Notes under the pieces: generated by a model
Seen by the model: only the letters and a program-made list of their open reading frames with translations
Told to the model about the DNA's origin: nothing
The model's database searches: none
In this document: piece by piece, positions 31,729-38,082 of the stretch
Layout: each line of letters begins with the position of its first letter
Position numbering within the stretch: the first letter of the stretch is position 1
Made by a program: the position numbers and the translations under genes
Origin: Nitratifractor salsuginis DSM 16511
GTDB lineage: Bacteria > Campylobacterota > Campylobacteria > Campylobacterales > Sulfurovaceae
Reading direction: 5' to 3'
Assembly (NCBI RefSeq): GCF_000186245.1
Contig: NC_014935.1
Location: 744,001 to 808,000, forward strand
DNA length: 64,000 nucleotides

Positions 31729-31819
31729 GGAGAGATGGCAGAGTGGTCGAATGCGGCGGCTTCGAAAGCCGTTGTCCGGGCTTCCCGGACCGGGGGTTCG
31801 AATCCCCCTCTCTCCGCCA
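31729..31819 (+). tRNA. tRNA-Ser (anticodon CGA)
   Basis: The sequence folds as a class II tRNA: acceptor GGAGAGA/TCTCTCC, anticodon stem GCGGC/GCCGT with loop TTCGAAA, long variable arm (TGTCCGGGCTTCCCGGACC) and T-arm GGGGGTTCGAATCCCCC. CCA is encoded (31817-31819). Its 3' end is repeated at 36139, marking an integration site. Confidence 0.95.
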
Positions 31820-31828
31820 CCCAACTTT
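31793..31828 (+). repeat. left 36-bp direct repeat (att-like) in tRNA-Ser
   Basis: It starts GGGGTTCGAATCCCCC and ends CACCCAACTTT; identical to 36139-36174. Confidence 0.85.
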
Positions 31829-31875: not shown

Positions 31876-32508
31876 ATGTCTATGAATAAAAAACTATTTC
31901 TACTCATGATCTGGGGGATCGCCTTCGGCTATATGGAAGCGGCTGTGGTGGTTTACCTGCGGGCGCTCTACTATCCCGAGGGCTTCACTTTTCCCCTCAA
32001 ACTCATCAGCGGAACTATTATGTGGACCGAGATCGGCCGGGAGGCGGCGACTTTGGTGCTGATGGCGGTGACGGTGATGTTGGCCTATGATCGTTTCCAG
32101 AGCCGTTTCGCGGCTTTTGCGGTGCTCTTTGGAGTCTGGGATATCTTCTACTATCTCTTTCTTTGGCTCATCCTGGGCTGGCCCGAGAGTCCAAAGACCT
32201 GGGATCTGCTTTTTCTCATCCCCTTACCCTGGGTCGGGCCGGTTTGGGCGCCGGTGCTGGTTTCGCTCGGATTGATCGGTGTGGGAAGTGCCGTTCTGAC
32301 GCTCAATGCCCGCAGGCGCTATCCCCATTTCAGCAAAGGTTTTGTAGTGACGGAAACAGTGGCGGGGTTGATGATCGTTGCCTCGTTCCTGCTCTCGGGA
32401 CGCAATATTGCTGTGACTGGAATGCCCGAACCCTTTCTCTGGCCGCTGTTTCTGGCGGGTTTTTTGTTGGGGGTTGGGGCTTTTTTCTATAGCATCAGGA
32501 AGAGATAG
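31876..32508 (+). CDS. polytopic membrane protein, intact copy 1
   Basis: The 210-residue protein has about six hydrophobic helices (for example LFLLMIWGIAFGYMEAAVVVY, AAFAVLFGVWDIFYYLFLWLILGW, LVSLGLIGVGSAVLTL). I do not recognise its family. The frame is open back through the tRNA, but the ATG at 31876 is the first plausible start; a second ATG lies two codons later. A second, broken copy is at 36225-38069. The last 289 bases of similarity (32196-32484) are identical between copies, whereas the preceding 245 bases differ at about 16 positions. The C-terminal residues (FFYSIRKR) differ from those of copy 2 (FHLALMKR). Confidence 0.75.
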   Translation: MSMNKKLFLLMIWGIAFGYMEAAVVVYLRALYYPEGFTFPLKLISGTIMWTEIGREAATLVLMAVTVMLAYDRFQSRFAAFAVLFGVWDIFYYLFLWLILGWPESPKTWDLLFLIPLPWVGPVWAPVLVSLGLIGVGSAVLTLNARRRYPHFSKGFVVTETVAGLMIVASFLLSGRNIAVTGMPEPFLWPLFLAGFLLGVGAFFYSIRKR

Positions 32509-32559
32509 TGATTCGGCATAGTAGATCTCGGTATGCTTGAGTCCCTGCGGTTTCCATCC

Positions 32560-34000
32560 GGCTGCGCAAACAATAATAGGGGCAGTCTGTTTTCAAAAGG
32601 CGCGTCGGAGATATTGACCTATGAAGCGGACGAGAAATAGACAGGTAAAGTTCGAAACAGACACCGTCGCACATAAACCTAAGCTCTTTTTGCATGAAAG
32701 CTCTCAAGAGGGCGATGATCTGGATCAGATCGGTATTCTCCTTGACACAGGTATCGATTTGTATGAGTTTTGTCAGAATCTCAAGAAAGCGCTGCATGGA
32801 GATGGCCAATACCTCAAATTCGCATTTGTAGATTCCTGAAGAGTTCTCCCAGTGTTTGGGGTTCGTGCTGAAGTCGATTGATGGTGGTGACCAGATTGTA
32901 GGTGAATAGGTGAATATGGAGAGTCTTATCCGGGCAATGAGCGCTTCATAAAGTCGGTTTTTCCTCCTTGCCCAGACCGAAATGTTCCCTGAGGTCTTTG
33001 TACCCCTGTTCGATATTCCACCGTTTTTTGTAGGTCTCGATCATCGCTTTGCCTGAAAGCGATGATCGGCACTGATGAAGATGATAAGCTCTTTGCCCGT
33101 ATGCAGGAAAAGGAGTTTGACTCTGCCAAGTAACTGATGTTCGGCGATCACGGTAGTAAATCTTTCTATGGGTACCGTAATGTTTACGGTGGTTGTTTTT
33201 ATGATGATGTAAAGAGCCTGAAGCGATTTGTATTTACTCTTGAAATGCCAGAGGCGGTTAGTGTTGGCAATCCGGGCAATGACAGGTAAACTCATTGCAT
33301 TGGCCTGATGAATGAAATCGGGTTTGGCATACCAACTGTCAATAAGTAGATAATCTGCCACAATCCCGGCATACAAAGCATGTTCCAGTATTTCGAGCGC
33401 AAGAAGATTTTTATCCCTGAGCCCCTCTTTGCATCGTTTGAATGCATTGCTGCGGTGGTGGAGACTTTGTGAAAAATCGGCCAGTTTCTTGTGACGGCTT
33501 GTATTGAGTCGCAAGGCGAAGTCTAACTGGAAAGTGGAATGGCTGTCGGCATAATTGAGCGAAACATTATTGAGGCTGCTAATGAGACGATGCTCCTTAT
33601 TGCTCCAAAGATACCGGCAGCCTCCCTCGATCTGTTTACCGCGTTTGGGTTCAACCGTATCGTCGATGATCAGTAGACGCTGCTCCCCTCTACGATGTAA
33701 GGGATCTATCTTTGCAATGAGCATCACGGCACTCAGCAATAACAGTTTGCGCCAGTTAAAACGGTGCTTCTTAAGAAAACGGTAGTAGATATCCTTTCCA
33801 AAGGCATTCCCAGGCTTTATTTGATGAAAGAGGATTGGCGTTTATGCTAAAGAAGCATATAGACAAAATGCAACAGCACCCAATAGGGAGCAAAGCCGAC
33901 AGAACGCTTGGTGAAGTTTGCCTGTCTGAGCACTGAAGAGATACCTATCTCACACAGCAGGGAAGAATCAGGTTTGTTAGTACGCCTCTTAACGCAGATT
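32560..34000 (-). pseudogene. decayed IS4-type transposase
   Basis: On the minus strand the remnants of a DDE transposase can be followed from about 34000 to 32560 through several frames. They are CEIGISSVLRQANFTKRS, GKDIYYRFLKKHRFNWRKLL, LLIIDDTVEPKRGKQIEGG (first Asp), YLLIDSWYAKPDFI (second Asp) and the Y-x-x-R-W-x-I-E motif in ETYKKRWNIEQGYKDLREHFGLG. The C-terminal parts follow (TYNLVTTINRLQHEPQTLGELFRNLQ; ISMQRFLEIL). The longest intact stretch is 33041-33739. At least four frameshifts or stops interrupt it, so it cannot act. No clear terminal inverted repeats were found. Confidence 0.75.
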
Positions 34001-34162
34001 CGATATACTTCTCAAGCTCCAAAAATTGGTCCTTTTCGCAATGTGTGTGGTTACAAAGTGTCTTTTTATGGGCTTTCTCTGATGGATTTATCTCTGAAAT
34101 CTATGTGAGAAAGTTGAGTTTATGTAGATAAACTGATGTAAAAATAATAAGGAGATTTTATA

Positions 34163-35977
34163 ATGGAAGAAAAAAAAGAAAATGATATGAACTTTATCAT
34201 CAATTTAAAAAACGAAATAGAATTGGATATACAAAAATTAGTATACAGATTGGATACAAATGGATTGATCAAATTTATTCTAGTAATGTTTGAAAATGAA
34301 TTATTTAATCAAGAATATGAAAAAAATCAGGCAAATTTATTTTATAAAGAAGATATTTCGGAAGAACTTTCATATGTTTTATATTTAAAGTTAAATCATT
34401 TTAATAAAAAATTAAATCTATTAAAAATAGAGAATATAGATTATATAAAGTTTGTTAAGAAAAATAATGAAATATTAAATCAGTTGTTGGAGCTATTAAA
34501 AGCTAGAAGTATAATTCGTGAAATGGATATATATATTACAAAGCAAGGATATACATTATCTATTGTTAATAATGTCATTTCTGTGGAGCATCCAATAAAA
34601 AACTTTCAACATTATTATCAAATGGGATATTTGAGAAATACATTGGAGAATATTACAATTGGTTTTAATGTATATGATGAAAAAGAAATAAAGTTTGAAA
34701 ATATGTCAGAGTCTTTTAATGAGCATTTATTTAAATTAACGAAAATAATTGATTATGAGATAAAATACCATAGATCTGTGAAAGAAGCAATTATATTTAG
34801 GATAAATCCACAAGGATTAGCTAAATTGCATAGAATTCTGACTGATGAGCATGATATGAGGTATAATCAAATAATGAGTAAATACCTTGATAATATAGGT
34901 ATGAATATTAATGACAAGTGCACCAAAAAGGGAAATTTAAAATGGATTGATCTTGTGTTTTTCTCAATTGTTTTACAATATTTAGTGACATATATGAATA
35001 AAATCATTGATGAGAAATCTACAAGTGAAAGAATGAAAATTAACTCTAAGGTACACCTGATGAGTAATTCGTATAAAGGTGATTTTTTCTATACAATATT
35101 ACATGATATAAATTCTGAAATAACACAAAAAGATGTGCAAGCATTTTTGAGTAAGTTTTCTACAAATATAGAAAAAGTATCTGGAAGAATAGACTTACAA
35201 TTTATGCCTATAGTTAAAGCAAAGGAGTTTAGCTTTATACTCTTTAATACTTTTTCTATGGTTGATCTTGCCCGTGCGTATATTAAAAATTTTGATATTG
35301 CATTGGATGATCAAGGGAAAAAATTCGAAAATGTTGTTTTAAAGGTATTGTCGAAGCACTTTGATAATATTCATTCAAGTATTAAATATAAAGACAATGA
35401 TAATAAGGAAGGCGAAATTGATATTTGTATTATTGGAGATAAGAATATATATTTTATTGAATGTAAAAATAATTTACATCCGATCTCTGCTTCAACAGCA
35501 TCAACAAACTATAAAAATTTTTTAAAATCTACAGAACAAGTTGAGCAATCAGAAAACTATTTTAATATGGATAGAAAAGGTTTTTTGAAAAAGCATTTAA
35601 AAATAGAAATTGACAATATTGAGGAATATGTTGTCCATAAAGTAGTAATCATGTCAAATCGAAATATTTCAGGTTTGAATTATAAAGGAATTTCATTCCG
35701 CGATATATATAGCCTGGATAAGCTGCTAGATGATGGTGTTTTAAAAGAATATACTAGAGTTCCAGGTGAGTCAAAAAAATTAGAAAAAAAAATATATATG
35801 TATAAAAATAGAACAGATTTCAATGAAATAGATTTTCTTAATTATTTATCTGAAAAATCGATTTATTTTGAAGTTCTTAATGGGTTAGCTAAAAAAATTT
35901 ATAATGAGGCAAAATATAAGCAATATATTCTAAGAGAGTCAATGTATGCATTTGATCTCATTGAACCAAGAAATTGA
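34163..35977 (+). CDS. AT-rich PD-(D/E)XK nuclease-like protein, candidate defence factor
   Basis: The 604-residue protein has a much lower GC content (about 27 percent by eye) than the surrounding genes. Residues ~1-380 are rich in Lys, Asn and Ile, mostly helical, with no motif I recognise. Residues ~385-500 form a restriction-endonuclease-like core: the leading glutamate in GKKFENVVLKVL (~389), the aspartate in GEIDICIIGD (~419) and E-x-K in IYFIECKNN (433-435), followed by a conserved-looking helix (QVEQSENYF). This is the catalytic triad of PD-(D/E)XK nucleases of the NERD/Mrr-like kind. A good AAGGAG site precedes the ATG. It is alone in a tRNA-linked island, as many phage-defence genes are. 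The target and activity are unknown. Confidence 0.7.
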   Translation: MEEKKENDMNFIINLKNEIELDIQKLVYRLDTNGLIKFILVMFENELFNQEYEKNQANLFYKEDISEELSYVLYLKLNHFNKKLNLLKIENIDYIKFVKKNNEILNQLLELLKARSIIREMDIYITKQGYTLSIVNNVISVEHPIKNFQHYYQMGYLRNTLENITIGFNVYDEKEIKFENMSESFNEHLFKLTKIIDYEIKYHRSVKEAIIFRINPQGLAKLHRILTDEHDMRYNQIMSKYLDNIGMNINDKCTKKGNLKWIDLVFFSIVLQYLVTYMNKIIDEKSTSERMKINSKVHLMSNSYKGDFFYTILHDINSEITQKDVQAFLSKFSTNIEKVSGRIDLQFMPIVKAKEFSFILFNTFSMVDLARAYIKNFDIALDDQGKKFENVVLKVLSKHFDNIHSSIKYKDNDNKEGEIDICIIGDKNIYFIECKNNLHPISASTASTNYKNFLKSTEQVEQSENYFNMDRKGFLKKHLKIEIDNIEEYVVHKVVIMSNRNISGLNYKGISFRDIYSLDKLLDDGVLKEYTRVPGESKKLEKKIYMYKNRTDFNEIDFLNYLSEKSIYFEVLNGLAKKIYNEAKYKQYILRESMYAFDLIEPRN

Positions 35978-36138: not shown

Positions 36139-36174
36139 GGGGTTCGAATCCCCCTCTCTCCGCCACCCAACTTT
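36139..36174 (+). repeat. right 36-bp direct repeat (tRNA-Ser 3' end)
   Basis: It is identical to 31793-31828 and contains only the T-arm and acceptor end of tRNA-Ser, so it cannot form a complete tRNA. Confidence 0.85.
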
Positions 36175-36337
36175 CTTTTATCAACTATATTGACGGCTTC
36201 GGAATCTTCTCGCTAAAATCAATTATGTCTATGAATAAAAAACTATTTCTGCTCATCATCTGGGGGATTTTTCGGCTATATGGAAGCGGCTGTGGTGGTT
36301 TACCTGCGGGTATAATGACCCCTCCCTTTCTGCACAC

Positions 36338-37156
36338 CTAAGCCGCTAAACGAAATACCTCTGCCGGTGTTTTGTATCGCAGCGCCGAATGTTTGCGCTT
36401 TTGGTTGTAAAAGTCGATCCAGTCTCCGATGATCCGATTGGCCTCCTTAAGCGATTTGAAATTGTGGTGCCAGATGCACTCTTCTTTGATCGTTCGGAAG
36501 AATCGTTCGATCATACCGTTCTGTTCCGGAGTGTAGGGAGTGATGAACTCCTGAATAAAATTGTAGTCTTTGACCGTTTTGGTGAAGGACTTACTACTGA
36601 GGACAAGCCCGTTGTCACTTCGAAGGGCTATAGGCTTTCTCAGCCGCTTAAGTTGGCCAAATCGATAGATCAATCCCTCCTGCAAAGCCGCTTCCGCTGT
36701 TTTCGTCTTGCCGCTTTTTGAGAGTCTCCACCCTACGATCTCCCGGGTACAGGTATCGATGACACAGGCTAGGGTTCCCCATCCTTCCTGGGCACTCCAA
36801 ACTCTGGTCATATCGATGGCCCATCTTTGATTGGGATATTGTGAGCGTGAGGGCATCATTTGGGCCCTTGGCCTGTGGCCTTTTGCTCGTTTTCTCACCT
36901 GCCAGCCTTTGAGCTGTAGAATCCGCTGAACCGCTTTCTTGTTCATCCCCAGCAGTAGAGCCAGACGCCGATAGCCGTAGGTAGGGAACTCCTCGATCTT
37001 CTCTTGAACCTTTCGCACACGCTCTTCATCTACTCTTGGAGTTCTCTCGATCGGTTTGTAATAAAAGCTCCTACGAGGGATTCCAAACAGACCGCAGAGT
37101 TTCGTGATGCTGATGGGATGCCCTTCCTCTCTCATTTCGCTCCGAACCCGCATCAC
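36338..37156 (-). CDS. IS3-family transposase OrfB (integrase core)
   Basis: The 272-residue protein has the N-terminal HTH_21-like region (YGYRRLALLLGMNKKAVQRIL) and the rve core with DDE residues: Asp in RWAIDMTRVW, Asp in LRSDNGLVL and Glu in NGMIERFFRTIKEE, with the usual 35-residue D-E spacing. It overlaps orfA by 4 bases at a GTGA. An AAAAAAG heptamer (37183-37189, minus strand) in the 3' part of orfA is followed by an orfB frame that is open upstream, so a -1 frameshift would yield an OrfAB fusion, the active transposase in this family. Confidence 0.93.
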   Translation of the reverse strand: MMRVRSEMREEGHPISITKLCGLFGIPRRSFYYKPIERTPRVDEERVRKVQEKIEEFPTYGYRRLALLLGMNKKAVQRILQLKGWQVRKRAKGHRPRAQMMPSRSQYPNQRWAIDMTRVWSAQEGWGTLACVIDTCTREIVGWRLSKSGKTKTAEAALQEGLIYRFGQLKRLRKPIALRSDNGLVLSSKSFTKTVKDYNFIQEFITPYTPEQNGMIERFFRTIKEECIWHHNFKSLKEANRIIGDWIDFYNQKRKHSALRYKTPAEVFRLAA

Positions 37157-37461
37157 TTCTTCTCTCCGAACAGAGCGTCGTACTTTTTTAGGGCGATATT
37201 CTCCAGGGTCAGCTCACCGATGACAGCTTTCATCTCTTTGATCTCCTCTTCGTACTGAGCGGCGATATCTTTAGGCCGTGCCCGCAATTGATTCTCCATT
37301 CCCCGACGGGCCTCATCCATCCACTCTTCTACGGTAGCGGGGGTCAAATCATACTTACGGGAAACCTCGGCGATGCTGGTCTTTCCCTGGAAGATATCCA
37401 TCACAATTTGTGCCTTTTTCTTGGCGGTAAAACGTTTGATCTCATTAGCCCCTTTTTCCAT
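37153..37461 (-). CDS. IS3-family transposase OrfA (HTH_Tnp_1)
   Basis: The 102-residue protein has an N-terminal helix-turn-helix (FTAKKKAQIVMDIFQGKTSIAEVSRKYDLTPATVEEW) that would bind the terminal repeats, and a C-terminal leucine-zipper-like helix (EEEIKEMKAVIGELTLEN). The slippery AAAAAAG lies about 12 codons before its stop. Confidence 0.92.
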   Translation of the reverse strand: MEKGANEIKRFTAKKKAQIVMDIFQGKTSIAEVSRKYDLTPATVEEWMDEARRGMENQLRARPKDIAAQYEEEIKEMKAVIGELTLENIALKKYDALFGEKK

Positions 37462-38082
37462 ACTGTCACTCCTGTATTCCTTGCATTATACATTGTGCAG
37501 TCGGGCTGGGGGTCAGTATACGGGCGCTCTACTATCCCGAGGGCTTCACTTTTCCCCTCAAACTCATCACGGGAACGATTATGTGGACCGAGATCGGCCG
37601 GGAGGTGGCGACTTTGGTACTAATGGCGGTGACGGTGATGCTGGCCTATGATCGTTTCCAGAGCCGTTTTGCGGCTTTTGCAGTGCTCTTCGGAGTCTGG
37701 GATATCTTCTATTACATTTTTCTTCGGCTCATCCTGGGCTGGCCCGAGAGTCCAAGGACCTGGGATCTGCTTTTTCTCATCCCCTTACCCTGGGTCGGGC
37801 CGGTTTGGGCGCCGGTGCTGGTTTCGCTCGGATTGATCGGTGTGGGAAGTGCCGTTCTGACGCTCAATGCCCGCAGGCGCTATCCCCATTTCAGCAAAGG
37901 TTTTGTAGTGACGGAAACAGTGGCGGGGTTGATGATCGTTGCCTCGTTCCTGCTCTCGGGACGCAATATTGCTGTGACTGGAATGCCCGAACCCTTTCTC
38001 TGGCCGCTGTTTCTGGCGGGTTTTTTGTTGGGGGTTGGGGCTTTTCATTTGGCTTTGATGAAGCGATAGTCACAGAGGCTTC

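Follow-up and report, generated by a model that had tools for sequence, protein, structure and literature searches.

A horizontally acquired gene for a predicted NERD nuclease in Nitratifractor salsuginis is a candidate single-gene anti-phage system

Introduction

Defence systems that contain a NERD domain include MADS6. NERD domains also occur in the Mokosh type I and Nhi-like systems (PMC10952713), in the defence protein PglW (PMC9009780) and in the candidate defence system TALON (PMC12458937). Another group of defence nucleases has been characterised in the Shedu family, for which it was found that the N-terminal part binds DNA ends, and that EcSduA combines DNA-end sensing with cleavage at a fixed distance (PMC12904381), while the N-terminal part of VcSduA carries an ATPase (PMC12137116).

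Here we describe a gene of N. salsuginis whose predicted product combines a NERD nuclease with a large N-terminal region. The gene neighbourhoods of its homologues make it probable that this horizontally acquired gene encodes a self-contained, Shedu-like anti-phage nuclease that works as a single gene; its helical N-terminal region is proposed to be a sensor.

The gene and its island

The gene lies in a 64-kb stretch of the N. salsuginis genome, the whole of which was analysed and is called the window below (Table 1). A first-pass annotation of this DNA had placed an open reading frame (ORF) for a 604-aa protein at 34163-35977, and an intact frame was recovered on the forward strand at exactly these positions behind a good ribosome-binding site. 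The deviating composition that had been estimated by eye at ~27% GC was computed as 24.5% for the gene versus 55.5% for the window; the low GC content extends over ~34.1 to 36.1 kb, which corresponds almost exactly to the gene. The gene is foreign and horizontally acquired; it is present in a single copy, and no second NERD-domain gene was found in the N. salsuginis genome (one 2,101,285-bp contig searched).

The gene had also been assigned to a tRNA-bounded island next to transposon debris. A tRNA pair at 44.2-44.4 kb turned out to be no boundary of this island, the real marker of which is a tRNA-Ser gene with a repeated 3' end, and the debris consists of a broken transposase-like remnant and an IS3-type element. 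The remnant had no match in PHROGs, so its family was not assigned by a tool. The membrane-protein gene that follows tRNA-Ser is duplicated (31876-32508 and 36176-38069, 93-97% identical), and between its two copies lie the NERD gene and, directly upstream of it, the remnant. Together, the duplicated tRNA-Ser end and gene copy look like the result of a mobile insertion or a recombination event at the end of a tRNA gene. None of the ORFs in the tRNA-Ser-marked island looked like an integrase, and no adjacent DNA methyltransferase was recognised by reading those between 31.7 and 38.1 kb. In an empty-site comparison, two members of the genus carried a gene related to the duplicated membrane gene. 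Beside it lay none of the other flanking genes that were tested, and a scan of 3.3-3.6 kb around it detected no tRNA; the comparison therefore did not show an empty insertion site.

Table 1. Features of the NERD gene and its island (positions within the window)
Feature	Position	Strand	Basis or remark
tRNA-Ser(CGA), intact, left marker of island	31729..31819	+	tRNA detection
Transposase-like remnant	33041..33739	-	reading frame broken over 32.5-34.1 kb (32495-34160)
AAGGAG ribosome-binding site	34149..34154	+	8 nt 5' of ATG, sequence
604-aa NERD-type PD-(D/E)XK protein gene	34163..35977	+	ORF list, Pfam, 24.5% GC
N-terminal region, residues 1-317, no recognised domain	34163..35113	+	low-confidence model, no Pfam match
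Region modelled apart, residues 318-604	35114..35974	+	AlphaFold, mean pLDDT 71, nuclease core ~90
NERD (PF08378) nuclease domain, residues 385-495	35315..35647	+	Pfam
E418-I-D420, second active-site motif	35414..35422	+	D420 kept in all 14 homologues
E433-C-K435-N436-x-x-H439-P440, ExK motif and family signature	35459..35482	+	homologue alignment
36-nt exact repeat of tRNA-Ser 3' end, att-like right marker	36139..36174	+	other copy 31793-31828
IS3-type insertion element, two ORFs, splits second membrane-protein gene copy	36338..37461	-	ORF list, PHROGs

The C-terminal nuclease domain

There is good support for the prediction that the C-terminal half folds as a PD-(D/E)XK (NERD) nuclease whose D420...E433-x-K435 site is intact and invariant. 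A nuclease fold had been proposed around residues 385-500, and three lines of evidence now cover this region: a match that exceeds the Pfam cut-off, invariant residues of catalytic type and a confident domain model. The NERD match (E 1.7e-6, 29.0 bits versus a gathering cut-off of 22.1) spans nearly the full Pfam model and recurs in 8 of 11 family members; no other Pfam domain, neither a kinase nor a helicase, was detected in any of the 11. The first-pass description of ~380 residues without a recognised domain holds for residues 1-380, but the nuclease that follows them belongs to a domain family already on record.

A single-sequence search of the PDB gave no match, and residues 318-604 were modelled apart with AlphaFold from eight homologues. 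The predicted elements (H382-397, E403-410, E416-424, E428-435, H443-469 and E490-497) follow the alpha-beta-beta-beta-alpha-beta order of PD-(D/E)XK enzymes. Structure comparison of this model gave Upx as the top match (Z 10.6, 190 aligned, rmsd 8.8), along with the small subunit of R.BspD6I (Z 9.5, 138 aligned, rmsd 3.5), McrC (Z 8.9), Cdn1 (Z 8.8), AF1548 (Z 8.4) and Can2 (Z 8.2). SduA (Z 8.8, 142 aligned, rmsd 4.0) is tied with other PD-(D/E)XK enzymes, and most of these matches fall within 1-2 Z units of each other, so the comparison establishes the fold and not one nearest relative. At the level of sequence profiles, AF1548 (PDB 1y88) was the only solved structure below E 0.001 (E 2.2e-5).

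Conservation across the family points to the same active site. Among 14 homologues with identity down to ~15%, D420, E433, C434, K435, P440, Q459, N499 and G525 are invariant, and E418 is kept in 13. The nuclease core had been read as E389, a D at ~419 and E433-x-K435; the last two elements stood, with the aspartate at D420, while E389 is not kept beyond the four Campylobacterota members; it lies therefore outside the shared active site and was rejected as one of its residues. A further motif, D344-x-Q346-x-x-P349, and R371 are also invariant upstream of the NERD match, so the conserved unit begins before that match. In addition, the two homologues closest to each other (78% amino acid identity) differ with dN 0.12 versus dS 0.82, indicating that the family is under purifying selection.

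The N-terminal region

Residues 1-317 are predicted to be mostly helical in the full-length AlphaFold model, where their pLDDT is mostly <50. The mean pLDDT of this model is 48 and its N-terminal part is unusable; we therefore assign no fold to residues 1-317, and structural matches of the helices to coiled coils were disregarded. The region has ~317 residues here and ~435 in relatives, and the Campylobacterota members are shorter at the N-terminus than the other members by ~115 residues. It is proposed, by analogy because the region lacks a confident model, that this part of the protein could serve as a sensor or oligomerisation region.

Distribution and gene neighbourhoods of the family

The family is rare, scattered and mobile. 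A single-sequence search found it in 2 of 397 genomes of the phylum, and profile searches found it in 4 of 399 genomes of the order (one a distant relative), in 2 of 398 genomes of Pseudomonadota (one a fragment) and in 2 of 298 genomes of the order of the Sphingomonas host. None of the five sister species of the genus included in the search had it, and no close relative of the single protein appeared in a scan of 84,980 genomes; an alignment-based search recovered four loci, those of Sulfurimonas and Sulfurovum included. Members are carried on sphingomonad, Cupriavidus and rhizobial plasmids, in phages or prophages, and in chromosomes. Several IMG/VR viral contigs carry the family, and a tblastn search of 50,697 annotated phages with three different members gave no match. 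Three homologues are phage or prophage cargo. Two copies lie among phage structural genes: that of locus L007, and that of L042, which has 29.9% GC in a phage of 57.5% GC and is placed between a baseplate and a tail-completion gene.

The first-pass annotation had suggested that the surroundings of homologues be checked for defence genes, and clear defence genes were found within ~8 kb at 6 of 14 independent loci. For example, a type I restriction-modification (RM) system and a kinase are directly adjacent to the homologue on a Novosphingobium plasmid, and AbiEi/AbiEii and a HEPN-Toprim gene are adjacent to that of S. fredii. The other clear cases are PtuA/PtuB of Septu (E to 5e-75) in one prophage (L026), a type I RM system in another (L040), parts of an HNH effector/NACHT protein with HEPN_AbiU2 in Cupriavidus, and a caspase in genome G1058 (L045). 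Weaker cases are RES and 'cll' genes 5-8 kb from the Sulfurovum homologue, HEPN and a near-threshold Mrr on sphingomonad plasmids, and PIN/HTH in N. decolorationis. The libraries used recognised no defence gene around the NERD gene in the window, nor beside the Sulfurimonas and R. etli copies.

PADLOC families were also counted around the gene and in a near-matched control, in which one rule took up to eight of the longest ORFs per stretch and the control stretches came mostly from the same replicons. At E<=1e-8, 181 families were matched around the gene (71 ORFs) versus 18 in the other stretches (72 ORFs); these are counts of models and not of genes, one type I RM system matching many models, so the difference shows a direction and not a rate. 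The sample is small, its control stretches were picked by position and not at random, and it includes one extra region. An earlier neighbour count of 316 families was dropped in favour of this rule-based set, since its ORFs had been picked as interesting.

The neighbouring genes differ at each locus, and neither a partner gene nor a recombination gene is conserved. As no partner is shared between loci, the protein should act by itself. No experimental phenotype was found for any homologue.

Several of these regions have features of their own. On Cupriavidus pBB1 (L013:1070-7171), the HNH/NACHT-like protein appears to be split by an insertion element, with its NACHT C-terminal (NCAB2) part beyond the transposase. 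In Sulfurovum (L010:16352-20077), a toxin-antitoxin-like pair may form a defence cluster with the PADLOC 'cll' match and the RES-domain protein ~5 kb from the homologue, and in Sulfurimonas (L006:2347-4365) two ORFs that look RhuM-like by eye adjoin the homologue. A distant relative of 695 aa, 28% identical in the nuclease region, comes from a different genome of the order (L043:7342-11501). Immediately downstream of it lie a retron II-A effector (PADLOC NDT_II-A) and an ORF that reads as reverse-transcriptase-like, and it could be a retron-associated partner.

Proposed mode of action and alternatives

In the mechanism that we propose, the N-terminal region would hold the nuclease inactive until it recognises something that a phage makes or exposes, which may be DNA ends, replication intermediates, a phage protein or a small ligand. 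The released nuclease would then cut DNA, either that of the phage, which would amount to restriction as in Shedu, or all DNA of the cell, which would lead to abortive infection. Of the two, an attack on the DNA of the phage itself is slightly favoured, since SduA, the single-gene nuclease with this layout whose mechanism is known, acts in this way.

The mobility of the family also allows for a nuclease that serves mobile elements instead of defending the host, through competition with plasmids or other phages, superinfection exclusion by a prophage, or recombination. Such a role would fit the copies on conjugative plasmids and in phage structural regions (L007, L042) and the position of the window gene at a tRNA-end repeat; it is nevertheless unlikely, given the copies in chromosomes without a visible element (L010, L006), the variable neighbours and the lack of a conserved recombination partner. 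A nuclease used in competition between phages would still be anti-phage, so this alternative overlaps with the preferred one. Rather improbable is a ligand-activated effector like Can2 or Card1 that degrades DNA or RNA indiscriminately in response to a signal made elsewhere, such as a cyclic oligonucleotide. Can2 structures are the best Foldseek matches of the domain model (E 2.1e-4), and PADLOC CARF_PDDEXK models match 5 of the 11 members (best 8.5e-6); this second match probably runs through the nuclease, however, and the PD-(D/E)XK core alone would explain it, while Pfam detected no CARF or SAVED domain in any of the 11 and the loci share no signal-making partner gene.

NERD and PD-(D/E)XK folds are also found in repair enzymes, and Hjc and AddAB appear in the structure comparison of the domain model. 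A housekeeping or repair nuclease would not be expected to be confined to so few genomes of its order and of Pseudomonadota, to be absent from the sister species searched or to have a foreign composition; this role is very improbable and was rejected on the distribution of the family. An anti-phage nuclease that acts as a single gene is the preferred reading.

Comparison with known systems

The NERD domain links the family to Mokosh type I, Nhi-like systems, PglW and MADS6, and the PADLOC model 'Viperin-associated NERD' matches 5 of the 11 members (best 1.8e-9). Those systems are multi-domain or multi-gene, whereas the family described here has no kinase or helicase domain. The nuclease fold is shared with the CRISPR ancillary nucleases Can2 and Card1; in the family, Pfam detected no CARF domain, and no CRISPR partner was seen at the loci examined. 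AF1548, at 199 residues, is without the large N-terminal region of the family.

Shedu has the same layout, a single gene whose product carries a variable N-terminal region ahead of a C-terminal PD-(D/E)XK nuclease (DUF4263 in SduA); its N-terminal region differs from that of the family, which has the NERD signature ECKN-x2-HP instead. Neither the DUF4263 nor the PADLOC SduA models matched any of the 11 members at E<=0.1; as this sequence signature of Shedu failed, it is proposed that the protein works like a Shedu and not that it is one. For Upx, the structural match takes in the stretch before the nuclease core as well, although its chain has 1,212 residues versus 604 here, no sequence match was found at E<=10, and the high rmsd makes a relation beyond the core uncertain.

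The chances are about even that the family constitutes a distinct single-gene defence system, in which a NERD nuclease is joined to a previously undescribed sensor of ~320-435 residues, that phages and plasmids have carried through Campylobacterota and Pseudomonadota, and that is not represented as a system of its own in the PADLOC and PHROGs models used. In that case, the sensor would be the part of interest, and the compact, lone gene, together with divergent copies from plasmids, prophages and chromosomes, makes the idea directly testable. The one-gene nuclease defences, a growing class that includes Shedu and Upx and in which one nuclease fold is combined with different sensors, would then gain a further layout.
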